This document shows, in pieces, positions 7,966 to 64,000 of a stretch of DNA of 64,000 nt (position 1 is its first letter; the number at the start of each line of letters is the position of its first letter). The notes under the pieces are model-generated. The model did not search any database, had not been told where the DNA came from, and saw nothing but the letters and a program-made list of their open reading frames with translations. The translations under genes were made by a program, and so were the position numbers. This DNA is from Sphaerolaimus hirsutus (taxonomy: Eukaryota; Nematoda; Chromadorea; Monhysterida; Sphaerolaimidae): positions 18,349,206 to 18,413,205 of the forward strand of contig OZ038459.1 of assembly GCA_964036195.1 (NCBI GenBank), given 5' to 3'.

Positions 7966-10525
7966 CTGCTGAAGAAAGTTGATGCGAGCGAAGTGAGGCA
8001 CATTTTCAGGCAAAGTAGGGCACAAATGTGTTGTTGCGAATTGAGTCAGTTATTGTTGCTAAATGTAGGACTGGATGCCTCTGCGAAGTAGCTTAGGTAG
8101 ATGCGAAATGGTGTGTACTCCCATTGGGAGTAGTCTCGCACCCTGTAAAGTGTAAAATGAAGTGTAAAATGTCAATTAAAATAAGAAAACAAATTTAACA
8201 TCGCTTTTTCATTTCAAATAACATTTTCACTTAATTTTACCTTCATTTGACACATTTGTATGACCTTTGACATGAATTTTTACTGTTCCCAGGGTGCAGG
8301 ACTGTTCCCATAAACAACTGGGCTAAAATACAGATATTCAGGACGGGTTGTATGATATACTTGAAAACGAAGCTTCTGCTCGCTGTTCGGTGACGATTAA
8401 TTTAGAGACAGGCCAATTAGCGGAATTATCATCAAAACCTGTGGATAAAATAATTAGATGATATTTTTTAACATTTTTGGTGTGCAAAAGGGGTGTTTTA
8501 CCGTTGATTTCGTTCTTCGAACGAGCTAAAAGTCTATCTAGAAACCAGGGCTGGCAAAATCTCAGAAAATAAAAAAATAAAATGGCAAATTCAAGAATAA
8601 AATAAAATAAAATAAAATGGAAAATTTCAAAATAAAAATAAAAATTGTATAAAAATTAGAATTTTTGTAATTTTTTTGTAAAATTGTATAAAAATTCATA
8701 TTTTTGTAAAAATTGTATAAAAATTCATATTTTTTGTAAAATTTTGATCTTGTTGTTTGGGGTTCTACCTGTCTAGTCACGGAGCTGGGGCAGTCCCAAG
8801 CCCTGTAAGGTGTCAAATGTCATATGAAATGTCATGCAAAGTGTCAATTGTCATGACAAATATAATTTAAAGTGTCAATTGTCATGACAAATATAATTTA
8901 AAGTGTCAATTGTCAAGCAAATTATATCCAAATCTTATGTTTTGTATCCAAATGTTGTTGTTGTTTTTGTATCCAAATTGTTTGTGAACATTTGGATACA
9001 AAAACATAAAATTATGAAATATAAAATACCAAAACGTAAGATTTGGATATAATTTGCTTGACAATTGACTGTTTACTTTACGTTTGTCATGACAATTGAC
9101 ACTATGCTTAACCTTTGATACATGAATTGACTCTTAACTTTACATTTGTCATGACAATTGTCACCTTGCATGACATTTTACAATGCACCCAGCACACTCC
9201 AGTAGTCCTTCTGGCTGGCTTTGCATGCAAGATTCTGATATTTTGTAAAATTAATGTAATTTTTTTGTAAAATTTTGATCTTGTTGTTTGGGGTTCTACC
9301 TGTCTAGTCACGGAGCTGGGGCAGTCCCAAGCCCTGTAAGGTGTCAAATGTCATATGAAATGTCATGCAAAGTGTCAATTGTCATGACAAATATAATTTA
9401 AAGTGTCAATTGTCATGACAAATATAAAATGTAAAGTGTCAATTGTCAAGCAAATTATATCCAAATCTTATGTTTTGTATCCAAATGTTGTTGTTGTTTT
9501 TGTATCCAAATTGTTTGTGAACATTTGGATACAAAAACATAAAATTATGAAATATAAAAAACCAAAACATAAGATTTGGATATAATTTGCTTGACAATTG
9601 ACTGTTTACTTTACGTTTGTCATGACAATTGACACTATGCTTGACCTTTGATACATGAATTGACTCTTAACTGTACATTTGTCATGACAATTGTCACCTT
9701 GCATGACATTTTACAATGCACCCAGCACACTCCAGTAGTCCTTCTGGCTGGCCTTGCATGCAAGATTCTGATATTTTGTAAAATTAATGTAAAATTTTTG
9801 TAAAATGGTGTCATTTTATCTTATTAATGACTTTTTGGAAAAAAATAAAATAAAACAAGAATAAAATTAAAATAAAATACATTTTTATACAATTATTATA
9901 CAATTTGTATACAAATAATTTTTATAAAGCCTACCCTGCTAGAAACTATTATTTACATAATGCATCTGCAATAAGTAGACATCCAATCAAAAAACGGCTT
10001 CTGTGCTAAATAAAATAGAATAAGCACTTGAAAAGATGCAAAATTAACAGCTCATTCTCTATTAGTTAAGTATAGGGAGGGATGGAAAAGCGCTAGAAGA
10101 AATGGCACCAAGCCCCAATGGCGCCATTCGAAAATATGGCACCTCTGGCTCTGGGTGAGGACCCATAGCGCCATGCGGCTGTTCAAACAAGGGCGCCAGA
10201 GAAAATTGACACCGTTTATCACACTTGGCGCCAATCCCAGACTCTGTAAAAAGCTCTGTAAAATTTCAAATGTCATGCAAAGTGTCAAAAGTCATGGACA
10301 GGGTAGGCTTTATAAAAATCATTTGTATTCAAATTGTATAATAATTGTAAAAAAATGTATTTTATTTTTATTTTATTCTTGTCTCATTTTATTTTATTTT
10401 ATTCCAAAAAGTCATTAATAAAATAAAATGACACCATTTTACAAAAATTTTACAAAAATTTTACATTAATTTTACAAAATATCAGAATCTTGCATGCAAG
10501 GCCAGCCAGAAGGACTACTGGAGTG

Positions 10526-11546
10526 TAGGGTTGGGGAATCGAACTGACCCAAACCGAACCGAACTGAGAACCGAGCACTATTTTGGAACCGAGAACCGGA
10601 ACCGAGCTTGAGAACCGAACTGGAACCGAGAACCGGCACTTATACCCGGAACCGAAGTAAATACCCGACAGAACCGAAATTTTCTAGGAATCTTAAAGTT
10701 TTTAAACAGCGTTTTTTCAACACCTACATCTAAGCCTTTAAACAGCAGCTGAACATCTTGGTGCGTGTTCAGAATTGCAAAATTCATCTGTTTGCAAAAT
10801 GATTGCGCGGGAGCGTGTAATTTCACGTATACTCCAGCGACATTACCTGAATAAAAGAACAAACATAAAAAAATTTCATCATATTTATCAAATTGCTTTG
10901 ATAAATATGATGAATTTTTTTTATGTATGTTCGTTTATTCAGATGGGATATGGTAGATTTCATTGTAAGGTGTAATGTCGCTGCAGTATACACATTATCA
11001 CTGGTAGTAGTTTTCATTGGTTTTGTAACAGTTTTAACCGTAGTTGGCAAAAGTTTTTTAGCAAAAGCAAAAGGCTCACTCGCGTACTACATAAATACAT
11101 TTATGTTTCCTCCAGAAAAAAATACCAGTACTCATTTACTCGTGTACTTTTTGAAAGTACGCGAGTACAGAAAACGTATATGTTTGCTTTTACACTTTTT
11201 TAAATACCAGTATTATTATAACAACTCTGATTTCTGCATTCTACCATGAAATAATAAGCTGTGATATGCTCATGTAGTATGAAATCTCCAACCAATGTAC
11301 TTACCCATGTAAACTTGGGTATATTGTTTTTCTGTTGTTCAGCCGATTATTACCTGATACCCGGTTGTTTTATTACCCGGAACCGAAATTTTGATCATTT
11401 TAGAACCGAACCGGAACCGAGTTTAAGAACCGAACCGAGAACCGGAACCAAAAATTTTCAGGAACCGAGAACCGATACCCGAACCGAAATCTTTTGGAAC
11501 AGAGAACTGAGAACCGGAACTGAAAATTTTGAAATTCCCAACCCTA
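10526..11546. mobile_element. hAT-like MITE with GAACCG arms
   Basis: TAGGGTTGGGGAATCGAAC at the left and GAAATTCCCAACCCTA at the right; exact 8-bp duplication CTGGAGTG (10518-10525, 11547-11554). The arms are degenerate (A)ACCGGAACCGAG repeats. The centre carries a second palindrome with TCATCATATTTATCAAA. Confidence 0.87.
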
Positions 11547-12023
11547 CTGGAGTGTGCTGGGTGCATTGTAAATTGTCATGCAAGGTGACAATTGTCATGA
11601 CAAATGTAAAGTTAAGTGAATTCATGTATCAAAGGTCAAGCATAGTGTCAATTGTCCTGACAAATGTAAAGTAAACAGTCAATTGACATGTAAAATGTCA
11701 ATTAAAGTGTCAATTGTCATGACAAATGTCATGCAAAGTGTAAATTGTCAAGCAAATTATATGCAAATCTTACGTTTTGGTATTTTATATTTCATAATTT
11801 TTTGTTTTTGTATCCAAATGTTCACAAACGATTTGGATACAAAAACAACAACAACATTTGGATACAAAACATAAGATTTGGATAAAATTGCTTGACAATT
11901 GACACTTCAAATTATATTTGTCATGACAATTGATACTTTAAATTATATTTGTCATGACAATTGACACTTTGCATGACATTTCATATGACATTTGACACCT
12001 TACAGGGCTTGGGACTACCCCAG

Positions 12024-32583: not shown

Positions 32584-35500
32584 TCAATTAGAGGACAGTT
32601 TCTTTGTACACAAATACACTTGTAAAGAGAACGTGTCCTGGAGCATTCCATAAATAGATTTGTCGCACCATCGTAGATGATTAAATTTGTGATGTTCTTC
32701 TGTGCCATTTTTCGACGAGTAGAATTTAGCACACGCTGCCGTTCTTTCAGCCAGCGAATTCCTGGCGGCAGGTGTGATCGCCCAATTAAAAATTCGAATA
32801 ATTTTGCACGATGTCATGCACTGCTCCTCATTTAGCGAGTCGAAACTGCCGCACATGGCTCTGACACTCTTTGCGTGTGTAGCAATAATAAAACTAGAAT
32901 TTCTCGGGTGAAAGTGACACGGTCCATCATCATTACCACAGCGAAGCATGGAAATATTGCATGCATTTTTATACACAGCTGGGAGCCAGTACAGATTCAG
33001 TGGCTCAGTGTGCAATTTGTGCAAAGCAATGGTTAAATTGCCACTGCAGTCGGATGATGCAGTCAACTGGGGGCAGTCCCAGACCCTGTAAAATGTCAAA
33101 TGTCATGCAAAGTGTCAAAAGTCGTCAAACTGAAGTCGCCATTTTTCACGGCATTTTCCAGGACTTTTGACACTTTGCATGACATTTGACATTTTACAGG
33201 GAATTTACAGGGTCTGGGACTGGCACCTGGTCAATCTGATGTAGTAAAGGCCAGTGCACTCCAAGTGAATATTCATGGATGGATTCAGTACCATTTCTTC
33301 TAGCTATTGTAGATTCTGATTTGTAAAGATTGCTTCCAAAATAAACTATGGCCACAAAGTTCCATACAAGCCACTGCACTAACAGCCTGCAAAATTCATT
33401 CTGTTTATGAATAGAATATTATGTTTGTTTTGATATACATTCATTTCAATTTCAAATTACATGGAAAACCTAAACCATTGATAAACAAACTTTGTGCTAA
33501 AATTCAGAAAGATATCAACTAGTGTGTTGATAGCTAGACCCCACAAATGACAAAAAATATACATTACCTGTTAGTGATGTTGCAGTTCATAGAGGATACT
33601 CTGATTATCAGTGCCATGATGAGTGGTGCCAAAATTGGCATCACAGCTTCAGCAGGCTTATTTGGATAAGTAGACAGGAGGAAAACTGGAACAGATGTAG
33701 TTGCAAGTGTGAGCCAGTACCTGTGCATCAAGTCACCTACCTTGTTCCAAGTGTTTAAAAAAAATTGAACGTGAGAACCTGGTGTCAACCCTTTTCCACT
33801 TGCTGGGGCCACTCAGTGTAGTTTCCAACAGAATGTAAATTAGTGCTGGTCCAGCAAGCCCATAACACATTGTTAAATTATGAGTCCAGTGGGTAAGAAT
33901 GCTGTGTGCTGCAAAAAGTTGTATTTACAGGTGATTTTATGATTTCTACATATTTACTCAGCAATTACAGTTTACTACACCTTTGATGCTGTCATCTAGC
34001 ACCAGTAATTGATTCAATGCATTCACTGGTGCCACAATCAGTTTTTCAACCAATTGCCCAAATGTAATGTTCCCAACTGATGCAGCTATGTGCAGATCAA
34101 CTAGAGCATCAGTGTGGCCATAGTACCATGTGTCAAACATGCTCAGACAGCAGCCAGTTGCCACAAAACTGGTTGAAATACCTGTAGTGATCTTATGTGA
34201 GCTAAAAATACAATGAATATTTGCTGGAGGATATAAGTAACAAGTAACTTACCTAAGATCTTCAATGGAATTGCTCTGAGATTAGTTGGATCACATAGCC
34301 AATGAGCAAGTGGTGCAAAAGCATACAAAATGAAGGAGGGGCAATGCCATGTGACCATTGCAAATGTGAAGCCCAATGACCAACCACCTGCCAATTTTTC
34401 CATCTTGTAACACATTTCAAGTTGTAAAACAACAATCTATCACCAAAACACACCATGCGTTAGTCCCACTTCCACACTATTACCACAAGCACATCTGCTA
34501 GTACCGGTAGTCCCAACTCCACTGTGACAGGCTTTACTTCCGGCAGCGCACTGCACCCGATGCCGCGACCACACGCTCATGTTCACCACGCACGCGTGCG
34601 TGAACGCAGCCAAGCCCAGTGATAGAACGCAAGTGCTGCCTGGCAACGAGCCAAATGTGAATGGAATGAACGAGGCGCAGTGTGCGCACAGAAGCAGATT
34701 CGGCTTGACGTGCCACGATTTGGCTACGCGGAACCTGTCGATATGAAATTGAGTTATAACTGGAAAGATTGAACGAATGAAGTTTGTGGACGATGCGGAA
34801 AGGGCCACTCGTAAAATGTGATTGGCAACTTCTGAACTTGACAAAATCACAAGCACCACGCGGAACTAATTATGGAATATTATTTTTATGGAAATATTTA
34901 CTTAGACTGCATTTTGGCAGAACTGGTTCTTGTCCATTCACGCACCAGACACTGGAATTTCGAGTTGTGTGTTTGAGTGTTTTTTGAAAGCGAGACAAAA
35001 TGGGTAAATAAACAATCTACGGAACGGAAACTTTATAAGGAAAAAGCTAGGCTGACATGTGAGTGAACTGCTGAAAGGACCAGGCTTCAAACTTTTTCGG
35101 TGAGCATGTTTAACATCTAAAAATTAGAATCTTTTGAACATTATGAACAGTAGCTCCACTCCCGCATCCAAAAAACGTTTGACTGAAAATTTAACTGAAT
35201 AACTGAAAATTTCAGTTCACGCCGCACCATACCTATCACAAATTCAAACGAACCAAAAATAATCAATAGCAAAGCTGGACAGTAAACTCGGCAGTCGCCT
35301 CAAGCGAAGCAGTGTCGACAAGCTCAGCGCACTGAAAAACGATATCCCATTGTCAAACACATCTGACAAATGCCGTATTTCCCATAGTTGTTAAAATACC
35401 GGTATTTTTGGAAAGTGTAAGTGTAAATACACTTTCCAAATTTTGAGTATGGATACCAAAAGTGTAAGGTATTTTAAAAAGACCTAGTAAAGTGTAAAAA

Positions 35501-50573: not shown

Positions 50574-53500
50574 CCGTCGCTCGTCCCAGGACTTTTGGAA
50601 CGCTAGGAAATGAATTATATGTATGTGACATCATTCCGGCATAAATCTGCTGTGAGTCTGGGGTGTAATTTTGAAATATATTTCGTTTTCATGTTTGAAG
50701 CTTTCGAAGTGCTTTTCTAATTGTGTGTATTTATGTCTGTATGTTATGTACCGCAAATCCTCGAATAAGACCCCCCTCGAATAGCTCCCCCCTTGAATAA
50801 CTCCCACATGTTGCCGAGATCTGGAAAAAATAACCGCCCCCCTCGAATAACTCCCCACTCTTGAAAACCTTCCCCCTAGGGAGATAAATGATACAATACA
50901 AAAGAATATTATCCTACAGCAGCGACAGCAGATACATGATGTGTATACAGTGTATACACATCTTTTTGTTGTTGTTGGACAGTTTTCAGATTGCACCAGA
51001 CATATACCTGAATCACATGAGTTTACAGACTGCACCCATGCAATGAATTAAGTCCAAGTTTTCTGAGGAAACATAACTCCTCCCCTCGAATAACTCCCCT
51101 TGAACCCCCCCCCCCATCCAAAACGTCTATGGAAAAAAATAACTCCCCTGGGGTCTTATTCGAGGATTTAGGGTAGGTAGTTTTCCATCCACGCGCAATT
51201 GTCTAGCTAGCTTTGTGTTTGCGTTATTCGAATCGGTTTATAAGATTTCTGTACATGTCTGTAGTAGACGAACAAAAGTGCATGTTTGCATTTACGCGCG
51301 GATGTTGATCTGTTGATTGGATAAGCGGATTTGATTTCTGGCCTTGTTTTGTGCTTTTGTCTGGATTTGTGTGAAGCTTTTTGACGGGTCATGTTTTGCC
51401 AACATTAACCTGTCAATGTGTTGAAAATTTTACATAAGCGACCGTTCACTAAGTTATGTTTCTCTATTGAGGGGACCATCCGCGCACCCGATTACGTGAA
51501 GTTGGAACGATATTTTGTATTTAAAAAATACTTAGGTATACTCCGGCCAGCTCAGATCAGATACTTGATTTTATTAATAATCACATCATGGCAGGGACGT
51601 ATCCAGGATTTTTGAGCGGGGGGGGGGGCTGCTTGTTTACGGGGGCCGGCGAACGGGGGGGGCTCAGCCCCCCCCCTAAAATTTTTCCCTATATAAGGGC
51701 GGAAAAGCGTTTTGGCGCTAGCGCCATACAAAGGCGCCGCGCCATGGCGTTATTGGCGTTGGCGCCAGTGCCAGGAACCGCTTTATATGTACAGGAAATT
51801 GCATACATATGCAGCGAAATTTGCAAAAATGTGTTCATTTCCAAGGATTTTGGTTTAAAGGGGCCGATCCACTGAAAATACACTGCATGGGGAAGAAATT
51901 GCGCGCTTGCGCGCAAAAATTTTAAGAAACATCGAAAAAAATATAGGAAAAGTTGCATTTTCCGGTACTTTTTAGGTCTCACCCCGGGAAGGTGAGGTCT
52001 TTTTAGGTCTCACCCCCCCCCCCCCGCCCCCCCCGCCCCCCCCCCTGGATACGTCCTTGCATCATGGTGAAGTGTTTCGTTCAGAAAAATCTACAGCGTG
52101 CATTTCGCGGAACCGAATCTGCATATTTATCGTCCCAACCTTACATGGTTACAGAAATCGCTGTTTGTATGTATTGCAAGGTCAGACAATGTATATTTGG
52201 ATTGTGGCAGGGGTCTGGTAGATTTGGACCCCCGGGGGTATAGATAATGGATTGTTCCTCTGGAAGGATACATAGCTGAAATTGTTTCTTGGTTGAGGGG
52301 GGGGGGGGTTCGCGGGGGTCCGATATATACATTTGTTTTCGAGGAGTAGAAGTAAGAAGAGGGAGAAACAAATAGGTGGGAAAATTCAAAAATAGGTGAA
52401 AAGTGGAAAAACCAGGTTAATTTTTCATTTAAGGTTTAAATAGCTAAAGATAAGTAAATGTTAAGGCAAAATATGCAAATAGGCAATTAGGCACGCCACT
52501 AGTGCTTTTGCAGGGCAAATAGTAAGAAAAAAATGGCGCTAAAATTTCTCAAAATGACTCCGGATAGATAGCTGGTCGATTTGGTATGGGGTTCAAGGGA
52601 TTGATAGACAGCTGTAGTGCTTGGGAACTCCTCCGACCTCCCTACTACATAGATCCCTGGGCAGTGGACACTGGTCACTTGTATTTTTGTACGCATATTT
52701 TGATAGTCAATGTGGTTTCACATTTATTCATATTTGGCTACAATGCGCATAATGGAATATACCGGCCAGACCGCATGCTTTGCACACAATTTTACCATAT
52801 TTTTACTAAAACAATCTTCTTTCACAACCTGTGCTCTTTATCCAGTGGTGAAAGCAATGCATTCTTATAAAAAACGCATAAACTTTTGTTCATTATTCAC
52901 TTCAATTTCAAATATAAGATTTCATTCACTGCAAGTTACAGCCAACGAATTAAATATTTTTGTAATGGCGGCCCACACTCTAGTTGACACATGTGTGTCA
53001 ACTGGTCTGTCAACTCCAGATGTCAGCTCACGTGTCGCAGAGCGATCTCCAAATGCACATGCGGCGATGTTGAAAAAGAAATATCGCGACAAGTGCATTG
53101 TAAGATTTCTCTGCGACACATGGAGCCGAAATCTGAGTTGACACAGACCAGTTGCCACAAATGTGTCAACTAGTGTGTAGGCCGCCAATATGAAGTGTTC
53201 GCCTTTGCTGTTAATGGTTTTTACATCCATAAATATTTATGTCAATACAATACAATGTGTAAAATGCGGGGAAATATTAAACTATTTTTGGGAGAAAACT
53301 GACTTTGATAGATCATAGACGCGAGTTGTATATTTTTTACACGATTGAAACTGAACACCTTGTATCAGAGGCGGTAAAAAATCTGTATTTAGTGATATCA
53401 TCGGGTGCACCTATGGTCTTACATGGTTTTCTGTTCGTGGAAAATCATTGTCGTTCATGAAGAAAAACCTCTATTCTAACCTTCAAAAAGCGATTAGTCG

Positions 53501-54718
53501 AAATTCTTGTTACCAAATACATCCTTAGGCCGCGTTTACACGGATTTTTTGTGACGACTCAACATCACTAAAAAGTTCAATAAGTTGAGTAAAAAGGTTC
53601 CAAATTCATGAGAAAAAGTGGTCAATTGTACATTCTACCTAGGCGAATATACATGTCGAATTGCTGAATCGTGCTTGTAGCTTAGACTTATAGATGTTTG
53701 AAAAAACTTTGCCAGTGTCGGACAGTCTCCCGACAGCCAGCGACAACAGCAAAATTGTTTCAAACGTATATAGATCTAAGCTACAAGCACGATTCTGCTA
53801 TTTGACATGCATATTTACCTCGGTAGAATATACAGTTAACCACTTTTTCCCATGAATATGGAACCTTTTTACTCAACTTATTGAACTTTTTAGTGGTGTT
53901 GAGTCGTCACAAAAAATCCGTGTAAACGCGGTCTTATGATTACAAATAGCAAGCAATTCACAAAAAGACGCAATTGTTTGATATGAAGATGGAAAAAATT
54001 ATGTTAAAATGGTGTTTCAAAAAGAACATGACAAAATTTGTAAGAAGGAAATAAATACTTTAAAAGTAACTAATATTACATAAATAATACTGCGATCATA
54101 ATGACCATGCGCACACTAGTTGACAAATGCAATTTGCTAAAAAAGCGGTTCAGTTTGTTGGAATTAGGAGTCTGTCAACTACTGTTGACGGTGATCAAAA
54201 ATGATCCATTGTGTTCAACTGAAATGTGTTCAAAACAGATTTTTCAGTTTTGGAAATTTCAGTTGTCAACAAAATCGTGTGCGTAGGCACAATATTTGAT
54301 TCTCAATTTGTGTTTAGACCAGGGGTCCTAGGCGGGGGGGCTGCCCCCCAAAAAAAATCCGCCAGCTATCTATCTATCCCGAGGCAATTTTTTTGGCTAC
54401 TACCCCCTGAGCCCCCCCCCCCAAATCGCTCAGCTACCCACCTATCTAGATAGATTTTTAAAAACTTTTGCCCCGATTTTCGCTCAAAATCGTTGATTTT
54501 CATACAATTTTTTTTTCTTTCTCACCTTCAAAAACGCGGCTTTCACCTATACACATGGTTATATTTCTATTTTTAGCTATTTTAGCCTATTTAGGCTACT
54601 TTTAACCTTTTTAGCAATTTTTTTCCAGCCCCCATGAGGGCCAACATCTTGGAGACCCCTGGTTTAGACCAGCCAATACATCGACATGTAAATAAATACA
54701 TCAACAGTCAGCACAAAA
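50574..54718. other. Gene-free stretch between the MPI and ZP-N gene 3' ends
   Basis: No exon is recognised. Contents: an ACCGCAAATCCTCGAATAAGAC repeat (50750-51180), a CAGGGACGTATCC hAT-like element (51592-52059, exact flanks CATCATGG), a CAGGGGTCTGGTAG element (about 52208-52659), a TAGTTGACACATGTGTGTCAACTGG palindrome (52972-53186), a GGCCGCGTTTACACGG palindrome (53528-53936), a TAGTTGACA palindrome (54106-54291) and a CAGGGGTCCTAGG hAT-like element (54320-54661, exact flanks GTTTAGAC). Confidence 0.65.
53528..53936. mobile_element. Palindromic element with GGCCGCGTTTACACGG ends
   Basis: The left end GGCCGCGTTTACACGGATTTTTTGTGACGACTCAAC pairs base for base with GTTGAGTCGTCACAAAAAATCCGTGTAAACGCGG at the right. 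The middle contains a second mirrored pair around GACTTAGATCTAAGC-like words. A possible relative lies nested at 20240-20700. Confidence 0.7.
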
Positions 54719-57700
54719 TCATTGATCGTTGTGCTGCCAGTGCTCGTAGGTCGTGCTGGCAAAGCTCGCCGTGCTTTCTAGCATGGCGGCGTACCTGTGC
54801 ATGTCAGAAGTGGCTGCGTGTTGGTCATGTAAATGTGCTGGCGAAGGAGGCAACGACATGGCTTTTTTGGCGCTGGCGCCATTGGCCCGAACACAGTAGT
54901 TGACATGAAAAATCAGTGTGATACAGCATAGTTAATTTTTTATTGTGACAGTAAATTTTAATTGTTTCTGTTAAGTGTGATGCTTACATAAAAATTATGT
55001 TATTGAGTTGACAGTCAGTTGACACGTATTTTTGTGTCAACTAGTGTGTGTGGGCCAATTGTCCCAAGACTCTAGCATCTACACACCTAAAGCGCGCGGC
55101 GCCCCATGACACTATCTATAGCACCACAATAAAATATTGTCACCTGGCCGTGTGCGTGGCCTGCGCCGCGTCACCCCTAGCCCCGAGTTTGTCTCTGACG
55201 GCCTGGGGCAGCGGCCTGGCGCTCACGTCGCCCACGTACACTTGCACGGGGTTTTGGGGTCGGTGTGGCTTTGTTTGCGCTGGGGGACTCGTCGAGTGGT
55301 GCCGTCTGAGGGGGTGGTGCGATGGTTTGATAGATTTTTAGTGTGTACGAGTTTTGCACCCCCAGGTGTCCCCAGGATTTTGACCCTTTCAATATATGTA
55401 TAGGCTTTTTCAAGGTGTAGATGGAAGAAAAGGGGTAATCGCAAAAGTAGTTGTAAAAATTCATCCACATATTTTGCTAAAAATAGCTGAAAATGTGAAA
55501 AAAGCACATGATCTAGTTATTTTGAATGTGAAAATGGGCAAAAAGGTATGAAAATTATTGATTTTGAGCAAAAATCTGGCAAAATTCCTCAAAAATCGTT
55601 CCAGATAGAAAAAGCTAGATAGCTGACCGATAGGGGGGGGGGGGGGGTAGGGTTCAAACGGGATTGACTTTTCGGGATCGGGATTCACTTTTTGAGATTT
55701 CGGGATCGGGATTGGGGTTTCGGGATCGGGATTGGTATTTTGAGATTTCGGGATCGGGATCGGGATTGGCCGGGATTGGGGTCACGGGATCGGGATAGAG
55801 ATTTTCGTCACTGTTCTGGCATTCACAGTTGTTCATAAAGGTCTCAAAACACTGTTGGATGCCAGAAAAGTGACATAAAATGGACGCTGGGGGTTTGCGT
55901 TCACATATTTGCATGCAAAAATGTCATTTTTTCACTTTTTATAAATTTCACTATTTTTTCCGGGATCAGGATCCCGGACTTGGGAGATTCTCGGGATCGG
56001 GATCGGGATTTGAAAGTTTTCGGGATCGGGATTGGTATTTTTGGATTTCGGGATCGGGATCGGGATTGGGGTTTCGGGATCGGGATCGGGACTGCTAAAT
56101 CCCGGAATTTCACGGGATCCGGGATCGGGATCCCGTTTGAACCCTAGGGGGGGGGGGGTTACTGGCACAGTAGCCAAAAAATGTGCCTCGTTATAGATAA
56201 CTGAGCTATATATATATATATATATATAGTTGGTATATCTGGTATAAATAGGGGGTAACCCCCTCCAAGCCCTGTGATCCCTACCACTTTAAAACGCAAT
56301 CCCGCCAAACCCAACCCACCTAGCCACGCTATGAACGCCCTCCTGCATCTCAGTAGTATCCCTATCATGATCAGCTATATTCTCGCCCGCCCCCGCCGCC
56401 ACGAATTGCAACTGTTCCTTCGTACGCGTGAAGGAATTGTGCGTGAAGTGTCGAGTTGAGGGGCTGGTTATTTGCTGGGTTGTTTGGGGTTGGGGGTTTT
56501 GGTTTGGGTTTGGTGTTTGGGGTGGGTGGGTGCTGGCGCCGGCTGTGGGTGAGCAGGCTGTCTGCACCTCGTCTGGGTTCGCTTTCCTGGGAGGGGGGTG
56601 CCAGTTTCTAGGTGTGTCAATTTGGGCCTGTGTGTATTTGTGATGGTGATGGTGGCACTAGAATGTGGGCTTATACACCTAGTTTTTGCGATTTTCTCCT
56701 TTTTATTCTTTCTACACAACGGAAACGCCTATATATCGAACACCCACAACACCCCCAACCCCCCCCCCCAATTTTTTCAGTTATCTATCCGGAGGTATTA
56801 TTTGCTATAACCCAACCCCCTGGTGGTTAAAATGTAGGATACCCCTTAATTTTTTTCGAGCTAAGTTTCTTTCGCTTCAGCACGTACTCCATGCAGCCCA
56901 CACTACCAACCTGGGTGCATTAGCAGCCTGCGGCGCGTGCGCTCTCTTAACGTAGCGCCTTTTTCCGTCGCCGTAACCACTGCCCCCGATACCGTAATCC
57001 TCCACAATAGGGCCCCTTTCATCCGTGTATGATTTCGTGTGCTGATGAATGTCTATTGTGTGCTCCATCGTGGTCGCACCGTTTTGGCACGCTTCCAACA
57101 CGTTGTCCAGGCGCTTCATGTAGTTCAGTTGGGTCAGTGTGTGGATTAGGGTTGTCCATTTGTCCCTGTATTTTGAGTAGATGGTATATTTTCTGATTTT
57201 GCTATAATTGCCATTAGGGTGCAAACGGGATCGACTTTTCTGGATTGGGATTAGGGGTTTTTCGGGGTTGGGACTAGGATCTCTGAATAAGAATAAGGAT
57301 TTCGGAAGTTCCGGTATTCAGGGTTTTTCTCTAATTTTTCAAAAAGGGTGGGAGGTAATTAAACACTTGGATTCTAAAGAACTGGTATAAAATGCAAACT
57401 GGATGTTCACATTCCTCTTGCAAAAAAAGTAATTTGGCAAATTCGGCATATTTTTCCGGGATAGAGATTGGGATCAGGATTGGTATTTTGAAAATGTTCG
57501 GAATCGCGATTTCAAATTAAAAATTTTGGGAACAGAATTGCGGGAATTATTGGAATTCGGGATCAGGATCCTGTTTCAAGCCTAGCTAGTTCACATGGGT
57601 CAGCTGACCTATTCATGATCTTGGAGTACTGCGCCCGTCTTGACAATGTCTCATAATCGTGCATGCCGGCCGAGCGCCACAGCCAGTTGGCGAATAGTTC

Positions 57701-60700
57701 GTCAGTTTCGATCAAATTGATGAATCGTTCTGATGTAGATTGTTGATGCTTAACTAAATAACGATCTACTGGGGGCAGTACCAAGCGTTGTAAAGTTAAG
57801 TAAAATCAAGTGTCAAATGACATGTAAAATGTCAATTAAAACAAAAAAGTAAAGATCTTATCACTGAACTTAGCATTGCAATTGACACTTTGCATGGCAA
57901 TTGCAAACTTATGTGCCACTTGTTATGACATTTGACACTTGACTTAAAAACACTTTACAGGGCTTGAAGCTGGCACCTGGTTTCCCCTAACATTACAATC
58001 AATTAATCAAGTGGCTCACCTATCTCCTGCTTATTCGGTCTGTGTCCATTTTGCCCATTGTGATTATTGGCATTGTTCCAAAACTGTTTGCGCACAGCGC
58101 TTATGCACTCGTTCAACCAGCGACTGCGCTGCTCCATTTGCTCGTTCGAGTCCAGTTTTTCTATTGTGTAAATTTTTGTGCATACATATTTTAGTTTCAT
58201 TTTGTCAAATACAGAAAGGTGTCAGTAAAATGCCAATGGACCAGGGGTAGAATAGATTTTGACTCTCCGGGGGGTTGGATAAATAGCGAGTGACTTCTCC
58301 GGAGGGATAGATAGCGGAAAACAATTTTTTTGGGGGGGGGGGGGGGGTCGTGGGGGTTCAATATATAGCCATTTTCGAAGTATAGAAAGAAGAAAAGGGA
58401 GAAAAATAGCTCAAAAGAGGCAATACCCCCTCCCAACACCCCTTTCCTACCCCTGCATTGCACACAAGTACTTTTGGTGTCATTCAAATGGCGCCAAAAT
58501 GTCGTGCTCCAAATCACCAACCTTCCAATGTAGAACTAGACCCTGCCGCTTGTAAAGTTTCACCCCTGTTCGAAGCAACAGCGTGCAGCGTTTGACCGTG
58601 TTCGAATTGCAAATGGCCACTTAATCCAGCCGAATTTAATTGCGTTATAGATCGGTCTGCCTCCTCTAAGCCGCCGCCGCCCATAATTTGTACTGGCGTC
58701 GCTCGAAATTTGCCTAATTGGTTGGCGTCGGGTTTTGATGCGTGGTTCCGATTTTTTCCGCTGCGGTCGACTGGGGTGTAGAGGTCGTTTGTTGTCTGTA
58801 AAATTGGGGTTTAGTTTGTGGTGATGTTAAAGCCATGAGGTTAGGGCTCGGACTCGACTCGAGACTCGAGATTTTTGCCTGACTCGAGACGCGATTTTCA
58901 CTGACTCGCCCGACTCGACTCGCCGGCTCGACCGGAAAATTTTTGGGTTTGTGACTCGAACTCGAGTTTGATAAAAATCGAGTTTCGAGCCCTGCATAAG
59001 GTGTTTATGGTTCAGGGCAATTTATGTCGACGGCATGGATAGTACCCAGGGCCGTATCCAGGGGAGGGGGCGGGGGGGCTGCAGCCCCCCCCCCCCTCCC
59101 GGGGCGAGACCAGAAAGTGACCGGAAAATTCGACTTTTTCAACGTCAGCGTAAAAATTTTTGCGCGCAAGCGCGCATTCTTCACCAGACAAGGTATTATC
59201 ATCCGATTTTCTCCATGTGGCCACAAATCGTTGTCAATACACTCAATGTTGTGTTTTTGATGTTTTGTATGTACATATACATATACAGCGTTCCATGGCG
59301 CTGACGCCAATGCCAATGGCGCCATGGCGTGGCGCCTACTAATGGCGCCATTCCGGCACTATGTAGCTAAAATTTTAGGGGGGGGTGGCTGAGCCCCCCC
59401 CCCTCGCCGGCCTCCGTAAACAAGCAGCCCCCCGCTCAAAAATCTTGGATACGTCCCTTATAGTACCGTCGGTCTTATTGAAATTGTTTTCCCTGGGACT
59501 AATGGTGCCAACTTCACTGACCTTGAGTAAACATGTTGGGATAAGTCCCAGGATTTTGTGCCTTTCGTTTTCTAATATTCATCGAACAAAAACATTCACT
59601 CATCGAGACACTTAACAAAAATGTCCAAAAAGTTCACATTTCCAGCTTCCATTTCTCAATTCCCATTACTGCATCACTCTTTCAAAACTCAAAAAACAAT
59701 AACCTAAATATTTACCTGGTCATTCTGTTTCCTAGTCAACAACTCCGCCTTCCATTCGGAATACGACCTGGGTGCATTCCCATTTTCCTGATTCCCCCCA
59801 CCGCTTTTGTTCCTACTCCTGGGCGCGGGCGTGGGCGAGTGTCCGGGAACTTTTTGACCGTTTGAATCGTGCGCAACGGCTACAGTTAACGGTCGATCGA
59901 AGTTCGGCGACGTTTGACGATTTTGATTGTCGAGCACTGTTTCGTAGGCGTCGTACATTGGAGCCGGGGGCATGCGTTGTTGCCCTTTGGATGTGAGACC
60001 GGTTTCTGGGGGGGGGGAGGGGGGGGGGTTGGTTTAGAAGTTTAAGTATGTTTTTGTGTGATGGTTAGATCAATTGACGGTCCACACACATCTGTGTCAA
60101 CTGGTTTGTGTCAACTCATATTTCGATGTCGCGTATCGCAGAGCGATCTCCAAATGCACATGCGGCAATGTTAAAAAAAATAGAACGGCATGTGCATTGG
60201 AAAATCGCTGTGCGACACGAGAAGTCAAAATCTGAGTTGACACAGACCGGTTGACACACGTGTGCCAACTAGTGTGCGGGCCGCCAATGACGCTTGAAAA
60301 TCTTACCGTCTCCCCCAGAAGATGTGGGCGATGTGTTTCCCGCTTCGCTCGTTGACATTGCCGCGAATGCTGCATGTTGAAGGAATTATGTAAAATACAT
60401 TTCGCGGACAATGTTTTTGTCATTGTTCTATTTTCATAAGAGGCTAATCTGTTTTAAACAGGCTGAGTTTACCAGAATGGATCATTTTTGAATCATCTCC
60501 GTCGACAGTAGTTAAAAGTCTCCCAGTTCTGGTAAACTCAATTGCATTCAAAACTGATTTATCAGTTTCAAAAGTTTGATCCAGATGTTCCAACTTGTAA
60601 AAAGTTACAAGTGATCCGGTGTTGGTATCGTCAATGTTAAACTACCCCATACACTACACCTTTAATAACTTGAAAACCCGAACAAGGAAAATTCTATTGT

Positions 60701-63700
60701 AAACAATAAAAATTATATAATTGTCCTTGCTCACCGTCCTTAGTCGAATTACTACTGATCATATAATCGTGGGAGAGCAGGGGGTCGTTGTTGGGCCTGC
60801 CCGTCCACCACAGGTTGCCGATGCCCAACTTGCCCATCTCCGCCCCGCCCACGTTGCCCATGGGCGATAACGACGACCCTGCTCCTGGCAGTTTTGGATA
60901 CATGTTTTATGTATTAATATGAAGGTTTATATTTATATAATATTGTATAAATTCATATATATATTATGTATATCAACTTATACTAATACAGGTATAATAG
61001 ATTGCACATCTAGACAAATTAAATGTAGGGTATTTACATTTTTAGTACGAGTACTAAATAAATATTCTGCGGACAAACAACAAATAAAACAATTTATGCA
61101 TCGATTTTTAACGGTCGCTGCAAATACTTCCACAGCCAACAGAAAAACCACCAATTTTATAAAAAGTCAATCTGAAGCTATTATATTATCATCAAGTTTC
61201 CCATCCCCTTCCCCCAGCTAACCTTTATTAGTCGCATTCACTCGATTCCGACTTTCAAATGTAACTTTCCTTCTTTTAATCAATGCGAACAGACAGCCGC
61301 ACACCATGCACAAAAGTGCCATCAGTAACATTGGCAGGACCAGGTAATAGACATATGCGTAGTCTAGGCTGGCCCCTGAAATTGGGGGGGGGGTGGTGCT
61401 TGTTTTGTTTTGTTGTTGATCAGGGTTTGTTGGTTTTATTTTTAGAAGGGGGTTCGATCGATATTTAGACCTCTTTTTTTGCTTAGTAGAGGAAATTTAG
61501 TGTGATGTGTGGTTGTTGTTGACAATGGGCCCACACACACTAGTTGACATTGCAAATGAGTGTCAACTGAATGTCAACTAAATAACACTATTTTTAAAGC
61601 ATCACATTGAACACAAACGATAAAAATTAAGTGTGACAATATAAAATTAACTACCGCTCTATCACATACTAAAGTTGATATCGAATCAAATAATTAGTGA
61701 ACCACAATTTAAACTGGATGTCAACCAATGTGTCTGGGTCCAATAAATTAAAACTATTTCCGGGACATCTTGATATTAAAGTAACAAATCATGGCAATAC
61801 CTGCAGCAACAAAAGAGCGTTGCAGTTATTCACACTTGACACTTACCAGTAGATTTCTCCCTGAGAGTAGTGGCCGCCCTGCCATTCAAATTGTCTATCT
61901 CTGGCGATGTGCCAATAGTGTCGCCATTGTCAAAATTTCGCTGTTTGAGCCCGCCATTAACGAGCGAATTTCTATCAATTTGATCAATATTGGCGCCGCT
62001 GCCAGCGTGAAAAACTGGGGCTAATGTTGGGTAGGTTGGCTCGAACGCTCCGGGTAATTCGATTGGGACAACCTGCATACTTTATGGCATTATTTGGAGT
62101 TTTCAAATCTGGACGGATGCCAAAAATGGCGGCCCACACAGTTGACACAGTGTCAACTGGCCTGTGGCAACTCAGATTTCGGCTTCACGTGTCGCATATC
62201 GATCTCCAAATGCATATCTACACACACTAGTTTTCACCGTGACTTCGTGGGAAAATGAATTTTTCAAATGCAGATTAATCAACACGGTTGAATGATTTTA
62301 TTTATTTGTAATGTGAATTTAAATTTATGAAAGTTTAAATTTGAAAATTTGAAAACTGAAACATTATAGCACACACTAGTAGTAGGCTGAATGTCGCCAT
62401 GTCGCCATTTCAGTTTTCACCAAAGTCACGGTGAAAACTAGTGTGTAGAGCCAATATTGAAAAACAACATTGGAAGATCACTGTGCGTCACGTGAAGCCG
62501 AAATCTGAGTTGACACAGACCAGTTGACACACGTGCGTCAACTAGTTTGCGGGCCGCAAAAATTTGGTTTGAAACTTGCCGGTTCCGGTCCGACCGCCGG
62601 TGGGGCGTAATAACATCTCACGGTGATCAGTTCATCCCCCCTCAGTATAATCAGTGGATTTTGACCAATCCGGATGACGTTTTCGAAGGTGCCATGGTCG
62701 ACCATTTTGGTGCCACAGGGATCGTTTATCAGTGGAATTTCCAGTATAAAATCGGTTTCACCCCTGCCCTGGGGGCAGTCCCAGACCCTGTAAAATGCCG
62801 TGTAAAATGTCAAATGTCATGCAAAGTGTCAAAAGTCATGTAAAATGCCCTGCAAAATGGCAAAAGTTGCCATTTTGCAGGGCATTTTACATGACTTTTG
62901 ACACTTTGCATGACATTTGACTTTTTACATGGCATTTTACATGGTCTGGGACTGGCACCTGGTGGCGGCATGCGGCGTTGCTATTGGTTCCGATGACGAT
63001 CCAGTCGTAGAACTCTCGGACAAGAGTTCGGTTGAATTTTAGGGAGACTATCATAAAGCGCGCAGAGCATTCGGGTAGGGCTGCAAGTTGGATTTAAGGT
63101 TGTTCTGTTCCGAGGTGAAAAGTAATGAACTTTTTCAAAGTAAATAAAAAAGTATTTTTTACCCTCTGCTGAGTACAGAAAACGTAAAGTAAAGGTTTTT
63201 TGCTTTTACGCTGCGTAAAAGGTGAGTAACTTTAAGTAACCTCTCCTGACAATGTATAAGCGAGTACCTATTTTAACAGAAATCATAAAAGCGAGCATTT
63301 TTATTACAGAAAACGTAAAAGTGAGTATTTTTCTCACAGAAAATGTGAAAGTGAGTATTTTTCAATTTTTACGCTGTAAGACATCAACGATGGATTTTTA
63401 TCTTGATAAGTAATGCTTATGAATATGATATGCTGTGCTGTTATCAAGATTTCTCTATTTTTAGTTAAGGGCTACGCCTGTAATTATCGCTAACTTTCTA
63501 AAAGTTGGCTTTAAGATGAGTACCAGTATTTCTTGGAGGAAACGTAAACCCAAAAGTACTGAAGAAAACCCCAATTCCCCAACCTGTAACTTTGGCCGAC
63601 TCAGTGGCCACATTTCTGTTGGTTTGCGGAATTCCCACTTGTGTTCTGATGCCCGCCTGCAGCTGTCCCAATACTTCCTGTAAATACATGGGACAAATTA

Positions 63701-63840
63701 CATTTGTTCAAAACCGTCAATTTGGAAGTTCAAAGTTTTTTTTTGAAAATTGGAAACTTTTAAGTGTCATTTTCACTCACATGATTAAGCAGGGCTGCGT
63801 AGGCTATTATACTGGATACCAATATTTGTTGAATCATCAT
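54719..63840 (-). CDS. Single-pass membrane protein with a lone ZP-N module and a long cytoplasmic tail, 16 exons
   Basis: Exons 63840-63781, 63677-63584, 63080-62959, 62768-62595 (3' end tentative), 62072-61847, 61375-61223, 60878-60735 (or from 60884), 60369-60307, 60005-59716, 58795-58522, 58160-58020, 57768-57609, 57165-56911, 56463-56320, 55305-55144, 54794-54719; about 845 aa. Residues 1-18 form a signal peptide. Residues 54-150 match a ZP-N module: four cysteines at 56, 89, 110 and 144 with 'RFMIVSLKFN', 'NDPCGTKMV', 'TFENVIRIGQNPLIILRGDE' and 'VRCYY'. A Ser/Pro-type stalk follows, then a hydrophobic helix near 231-254 ended by KRRK. The remaining about 590 residues are cytoplasmic, polar, without a recognised domain, but conserved-looking (for example 'RSYSEWKAELL', 'FINLIETDELFANWLWRSAG'). 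No ZP-C module is visible. ZP proteins usually form extracellular matrix. Intron 3 is exactly one family-A element and intron 11 takes its acceptor from another. Confidence 0.82.
55643..56149. mobile_element. hAT-like MITE with GGGATCGGGATT arms
   Basis: TAGGGTTCAAACGGGATTGAC and GATCCCGTTTGAACCCTA ends, set inside a poly-G tract, which hides the target duplication. A related eroded copy is at 57216-57590 and a partial one at 43332-43460. It lies in ZP-N gene intron 14. Confidence 0.75.
56211..56228. repeat. (TA)n microsatellite
   Basis: About nine TA units in the same intron, directly after a GATAGATAACTGAGC word of the CAGGGGTCTCC-type repeats. Confidence 0.8.
57772..57976 (-). mobile_element. 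Family-A element supplying the acceptor of intron 11 of the ZP-N gene
   Basis: A 205-bp family-A copy flanked by CAG on both sides (57769-57771 and 57977-57979). The donor of this intron (gtgagc at 58019) lies 43 bases outside the element. The acceptor is the CAG after ...CTGCCCC. Removing the element leaves a 46-base intron that would already have ended in the same CAG, so it appears to have landed in the old acceptor and regenerated it. Confidence 0.8.
59047..59459. mobile_element. hAT-like element CAGGGCCGTATCC, ZP-N gene intron 9
   Basis: CAGGGCCGTATCCAGGGG and TTGGATACGTCCCTT ends; exact 8-bp duplication ATAGTACC on both sides. The element body is nearly the same as that at 44433-44834. 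Confidence 0.87.
60077..60288. mobile_element. TAGTTGACA-type palindromic MITE (family B), ZP-N gene intron 8
   Basis: GGTCCACACACATCTGTGTCAACTGG at the left and CCGGTTGACACACGTGTGCCAACTAGTGTGCGGGCC at the right. Other members are 26948-27175, 52972-53186, 54106-54291, 54889-55053, 61530-61742 and 62118-62556; the last holds a related ACTAGTTTTCACCGTGA element (about 62219-62450). Confidence 0.7.
62769..62958 (-). mobile_element. Family-A introner forming an entire intron (ZP-N gene)
   Basis: On the minus strand: exon ...CGC CAC CAG, then GTGCCAGTCCCAGACCATGT ... GGTCTGGGACTGCCCCCAG, then GGC AGG GGT. The 190-bp intron equals the element (62772-62958) plus one CAG of the duplication. Phase 0 on both sides, and the join falls inside the ZP-N module between its second and third cysteines. 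The element is an almost perfect hairpin centred near 62866. Confidence 0.92.
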
Positions 63841-64000
63841 GTTATGCCGTCGGTTGCGTGACGGGAAAATTCCATGCACTCGCAGCTACGAAGTCTAGTT
63901 TTAGATGTTCGTGGATAAATAGTACGTTAAAATCTGTAAGGTACATTTCAAAAACAAAGATCTTCAATTCAATACAAATCGAGTACATGAGAGAAATATC

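Follow-up and report, generated by a model that had tools for sequence, protein, structure and literature searches.

A foldback transposon family with C(A/T)G target duplications as a probable source of introns in the nematode Sphaerolaimus hirsutus

Introduction

Introners are described in a broad survey as multicopy introns that are similar up to their splice boundaries, carry terminal inverted repeats (TIRs) and a short target site duplication (TSD), derive part of a splice site from the TSD and leave mRNA length unchanged (PMC9860276). The survey recognizes only two animal groups among the hosts, of which its text names the copepods (PMC9860276). Thus, an animal introner is not in itself new. 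Introner elements of the dinoflagellate Amoebophrya are repeated introns whose inverted repeats draw the exon ends together, with direct repeats of 3-5 nt at the borders and many non-GT-AG boundaries (PMC7789003). The nonconventional and intermediate introns of euglenids also have a stable hairpin that joins the intron ends, non-canonical borders and a proposed MITE origin (PMC4770533). Among animals, many introns fall outside the GT-AG rule in the tunicate Fritillaria borealis, where introner transposons with weak splice sites are described as a possible source of non-canonical introns (PMC13326754), and in the copepod Eurytemora affinis (PMC5714493).

Here we describe a family of probable introns identified in a 64,000-nucleotide stretch of the S. 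hirsutus genome (contig OZ038459.1, positions 18,349,206 to 18,413,205; hereafter, the window). The family shares with the surveyed introners all of the features listed above. Unlike them, as far as the text of the survey goes, it has a near-perfect foldback over the whole element, a CWG target and many non-AG 3' ends. It also shares the repeated introns, inverted repeats, short border repeats and frequent non-GT-AG boundaries of the Amoebophrya elements, whose borders are described as variable throughout (PMC7789003), whereas our introns have a GT donor and belong to one sequence family, its copies having been found by similarity. The euglenid introns are described as lacking complementarity to U1 (PMC4770533), in contrast to the CAG/GTGCC donors (the slash marks the exon end) kept here. 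Further, the odd end of the E. affinis introns is the donor, GA or GG (PMC5714493), while in the nematode it is the acceptor, which follows the transposon target. What is new is the C(A/T)G duplication of a foldback element, which gives many copies a 3' end in CTG or another non-AG triplet and would thereby set the acceptor. A search of one literature collection on introners and intron gain, by titles and abstract openings, did not find the family described.

Results and Discussion

The initial annotation had read positions 62769-62958 of the window, on the minus strand, as an intron of a ZP-N gene that is exactly a palindromic transposon. Both the sequence claim and the coordinates hold on re-reading, and the features of the locus are as follows (window coordinates).

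62769..62958, minus strand: inferred intron of 190 bases, the element plus one copy of the target duplication, with GT...CAG boundaries and an in-frame ZP-N junction
62772..62958, minus strand: palindromic MITE-like element (introner), GTGCCAG...CTGCCCC, 187 bases, a near-perfect palindrome with 89% of bases paired
62959..62961, minus strand: target duplication copy 1, CAG, the end of the upstream exon, which completes the donor CAG/GTGCC
62769..62771, minus strand: target duplication copy 2, CAG, which provides the AG acceptor
62788..62795, minus strand: internal acceptor-like TTTTACAG, within the stem, its last base 19 nt short of the intron end
62959..63080, minus strand: upstream ZP-N exon, its start after CTTGCAG placed by eye
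62580..62768, minus strand: downstream ZP-N exon, the next intron starting with GCAAGT, placed by eye

The intron reads GTGCCAGTCCCAGACC...GGTCTGGGACTGCCCCCAG, 5' to 3'. As had been proposed, it starts at the first base of the element (62958) and ends with the CAG duplication (62769-62771). Because CAG is both the 5' flank and the intron end, the segment that moves is 62772-62958, flanked by a CAG duplication of 3 bp. The in-frame excision that the annotation predicted also stands: removal joins CGC CAC CAG to GGC AGG GGT (R H Q and G R G in the protein), whereas retention of 62769-62958 shifts the frame and places stops in it. The joined exons match the Pfam ZP-N domain (E 2.8e-6, 28 bits, cut-off 24.7) over residues 6-96, so that the junction, at residues 42 and 43, lies inside the match. 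Scanning 54001-63999 against Pfam in its three minus frames, with stops as X, gave no match, probably because the exons are short, and a protein search with the ZP protein returned no relative and no match. The computed fold of the transcribed strand of the intron (-146.6 kcal/mol, 89% of bases paired) leaves unpaired only the first four bases (GTGC) and the last seven (CCCCCAG). The following intron of the ZP gene has, by eye, an apparent GC start (CCG/GCAAGT; 62574-62579, minus strand). Members of another repeat family lie at 53074-53189, 60173-60288 and 62446-62561 of the window, 73-80% identical to the first and one of them near the ZP-N exons.

The family is present at no fewer than 80 places, and probably at far more. 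Searching the 348.5-Mb genome with the ZP-N element as DNA query, we scored 40 places among 2680 first-look candidates, and a further 40 among 1656 candidates with the following copy as query.

33067..33229, minus strand: second intact copy, with the CAG duplication on both sides; excision joins the flanks into a minus-strand ORF of 224 aa that spans the junction

The joined 224-aa ORF had no Pfam match. We tabulated 69 insertions after leaving out six loci that were the same places on the opposite strand (L008, L019, L024-L027) and 11 copies whose flanks, inspected by eye, marked them as segmental (L005, L011, L021, L043, L050, L051, L054, L055, L065, L066, L068). The family has the ends GGGGCAGTCCCA and a CWG target duplication, and its introns are alike up to both splice boundaries (69 insertions, with ends aligned for 40 places). 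With so many copies having identical ends, those of the ZP-N element are not there by chance. The introns open with GT in 64 of the 69 insertions and with GC in two. Segmental or haplotypic copies of one insertion include L043 (C108, a 51-kb contig) and L045 (C2), L017 and L021, and the group of L005, L010 and L011; such copies are useful for dating or allele checks.

The annotation had described the family as targeting CAG. The CAG duplication was confirmed at the ZP-N copy, but for the family as a whole the target is wider, C(A/T)G. On the 5' side the triplet is CAG in 41 insertions, CTG in 20 and CAT in four; the 3' triplet is most commonly CAG (40/69), then CTG (16) and CAT (3), with 10 others, some of them mis-set or ambiguous. 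Thus, CAG or CTG forms the 5' triplet in 61/69 insertions and the 3' triplet in 56/69, and CAT and mismatched pairs are also present. The scored 3' triplet does not end in AG in 28/69, a count that includes L062 and L071, set off by one base; five diverged rows (L032, L069, L077, L082 and L084) are ambiguous. The middle base differs between the two duplication copies in L013, L014 and L079 (CTG at 5', CAG at 3') and in L020 (CAG, CTG), as well as in L038 (CAG, CGG) and L037 (CTG, CCG). If a 3' CTG mutated to CAG, the acceptor would be restored; the reverse cases show that such repair does not explain everything. An AG lies 15-22 nt before the 3' end in 63/69 insertions and in 25 of the 28 non-AG ones, and across the family the stem contains TTTTACAG, or a near match to it, that terminates about 19 nt short of the intron's 3' end. 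Splicing at this internal site would add 19 nt and thereby shift the frame.

We scanned with Pfam the junction-spanning ORFs on the GTGCC strand for 42 of 80 rows, or 41 insertions. Fifteen of the 41 gave matches on coding-sense junction ORFs, 11 of them above the curated cut-off; the fraction is not a rate, as ten of the scanned ORFs were chosen by eye as coding-looking. The reading frames of L036 and L037 were also chosen by eye. The matched insertions, by locus number, are:

L001: ZP-N
L004: 7tm_1 (below cut-off)
L006: nicotinic receptor ligand-binding domain
L018: nicotinic receptor membrane domain (below cut-off)
L009: Laminin_N
L012: CG-1 of CAMTA
L017/L021: Peptidase_M14
L073: Peptidase_M14
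L033: Glyco_transf_92
L035: Vinculin (below cut-off)
L038: zf-C2H2
L039: Myosin_head
L045: LRR
L064: MFS (below cut-off)
L085: Guanylate_cyc

The other 26 scanned insertions had no accepted match; that of L022 to Toxin_28 (12 residues, E 0.0078 and 0.012, below cut-off) was taken as chance and dropped. A Pfam or PDB match spans the junction in 12 of the 15, though in L021, L035 and L073 only with inserts of 17-26 residues, and thus without fixing its exact position. The matches of L004 and L018 stop short of crossing the junction and that of L045 begins at it. These elements thus occupy coding exons and their removal keeps the frame, the alignments being ungapped in the laminin, receptor and monocarboxylate transporter (MCT) genes. 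In particular, the nicotinic receptor copy aligns ungapped once the element is removed, and the myosin copy aligns with one 2-residue gap, five residues off the junction. A PDB search with the CAMTA junction returned no match, and one with the potassium-channel-like L016 gave only a marginal match (E 0.006). A protein search with the laminin exon had a best match of 70% identity; neither this search nor that with the ZP protein, both meant to recover transcript-like proteins, yielded a sequence from the species itself.

Orientation and stop codons bear on how the elements are removed. In all 15 Pfam-supported insertions GTGCC is on the coding strand (p 3e-5), while no antisense ORF (0/53; 35 + 18, longest ORF only) matched Pfam at E 0.01. 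Under a codon table trained on the 15, 40 of the 54 held-out insertions had a positive score, and 31 of these 40 came out as sense (p 3e-4); over all 54 the figure was only 34. The longest open frames left and right of the element agree in 33/69 insertions in sense (p 0.009) and in 26/69 in antisense (p 0.26), a test too weak to carry the case. We also considered in-frame retention of the element as a protein insert and rejected it, because in 15/15 the coding frame would run into between one and five stops within the retained element. Removal from somatic DNA rather than from RNA, as for MITEs in some ciliates, would suit CAG and CTG copies alike if exact excision left one target copy, and precise excision is described as possible for PIF/Harbinger MITEs (PMC4561436). 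Excision from DNA should, however, be indifferent to the coding strand, and the uniform coding-sense orientation makes it very unlikely. Removal from RNA is the reading that we follow below.

MITEs are common within introns in general. The elements could have landed in older introns and reached the splice sites by chance only. We regard this as extremely improbable, because in many unrelated genes the exon junction falls at the element ends and the target duplication, and because paralogues of the receptor gene have no intron at the site. With the spliced L006 receptor fragment as query, its own gene was recovered as two pieces, split at the element. In contrast, other receptor genes aligned in one piece across the junction, among them a paralogue at C15:23412243-23412410 over residues 31-86 with no stop and another at C14:5926424-5926660 over residues 10-84 (37% identity). 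Reading both of these loci confirmed that the exon is continuous. Thus, the intron is an addition in the L006 receptor gene, and the site is empty elsewhere in one gene family, the nicotinic receptors.

Several copies without an AG end are in conserved genes. L009 interrupts a laminin beta gene and has CTG on both sides; without the element and one CTG it aligns with laminin beta-1 over 88 residues with no gap. L064 (5' ATG, 3' CTG) aligns ungapped with monocarboxylate transporter 1 (MCT1), and the matches of L012 (CTG on both sides) and L038 (5' CAG, 3' CGG) span the CG-1 domain of CAMTA and a zinc finger, respectively. Such copies reflect either non-AG splicing or damaged alleles. Under the second of these readings only the CAG copies are introns, and the CTG, CGG, CCG and CAT copies are recent, unspliced, damaging insertions, heterozygous or in dying genes. 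The AG rule is on its side, as is the prevalence of CAG among the 3' triplets, and human TG acceptors are described only as alternatives to an AG within 28 nt, never as the sole acceptor (PMC2374985). The non-AG copies are, however, likewise coding-sense: 5/5 of those with Pfam support (L009, L012, L018, L038 and L064, with L018 and L064 below the cut-off and the L018 match off the junction) and eight of nine held-out copies with a codon score above 5, or 13/14 together (p 9e-4). The cut of 5 was our choice; at scores above 0 the count is 10/13, with L022 (AAG) and L071 (mis-set) left out. This bias is expected if removal from RNA is strand-specific and unexpected for unspliced damage or DNA excision. 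Moreover, in the highly conserved laminin beta exon the reading frame stays open to the left and right of the element. We therefore consider it possible, if rather doubtful, that only CAG copies are introns.

We think instead that most TG-ending introns, those at CTG targets, are still removed, which is the least certain step in our account. We suggest that the upstream AG in TTTTACAG may help to define the intron, with the target triplet serving the second step. The wider proposal, which we put forward tentatively and as a serious possibility, is that hairpin introns are excised in this animal with a terminal dinucleotide that depends on the middle base of the target: AG for CAG, TG for CTG, and sometimes CG, GG or AT. 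The hairpin would hold the two splice sites next to each other and so allow acceptors other than AG to be used constitutively; the first step may be licensed by the TTTTACAG buried 19 nt upstream, much as in human TG-AG tandems. The 187-nt hairpin has no free branch point or pyrimidine tract, and this counts against the splicing model.

The CWG duplication and one terminus starting with GGG suggest kinship with the NuwaI group of PHIS, in the PIF/Harbinger superfamily, which is described as having these two features, in animals only, with TIRs of 12-61 bp that usually start with GGG (PMC4482050). The nematode family resembles NuwaI in its 3-bp CWG duplication, in one element terminus that starts with GGGG and in its animal host. 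It differs in the other terminus, which starts with GTG, and in its far longer inverted repeats: the element ends are GGGGCAG and GTGCCAG, and the inverted repeat is the whole element. The GTG terminus makes the donor and may be an adaptation to splicing. The genome has 163 matches to PF13359, a PIF/Harbinger-type transposase domain; reading three of these loci (L089-L091, 3.6 kb each) disclosed no introner-like termini. With more than 100 similar places, L089-L091 make up a family of PIF/Harbinger-type transposases whose scores lie close together and in which the domain is broken by about 190 bp with stops, probably an intron of its own. Separately, a 3.2-kb stretch of the window (8785-12023) has 139-nt inverted arms (97% complementary) and introner-like ends GGGGCAGTCCCAAGCCCTGTAA; no transposase ORF was recognized in it by eye.

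Together, these results suggest how an insertion could become an intron. A PIF/Harbinger-superfamily (NuwaI-like) transposase may have moved the element. When GTGCC lies on the coding strand, the CAG at the exon end would combine with the first bases of the element into the donor CAG/GTGCC, and the second CAG copy would serve as the acceptor. Hairpin folding may then bring the two splice sites within about 11 unpaired nt and hide the upstream TTTTACAG. The host, presumably through the spliceosome, would splice the insertion out exactly, leaving the protein unchanged. At a CTG target, the same intron would end in TG. That one insertion can create a complete intron without changing the protein, as first proposed for the ZP-N gene, gains support from the other copies through their ends at exon junctions, coding-strand orientation, stops on retention and uninterrupted receptor paralogues, from which splicing is inferred. 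We conclude that this introner is very probably a non-autonomous, 187-bp DNA transposon with a C(A/T)G duplication, which draws donor and acceptor from its ends and target and is spliced exactly. We are likewise highly confident that the finding is real and that the evidence from DNA supports the mechanism well.

Conclusions

The origin of introns is a long-standing question, and here one transposon family offers many insertions of rankable age in a single animal genome, each with its donor, acceptor and target directly readable. As the target permits both CAG and CTG, AG and TG acceptors can be compared in introns that otherwise differ little, so that the AG rule and the contribution of RNA folding become directly testable. 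If the non-AG copies are indeed spliced, nature would in effect have performed a mutational scan of the 3' splice site in this family.
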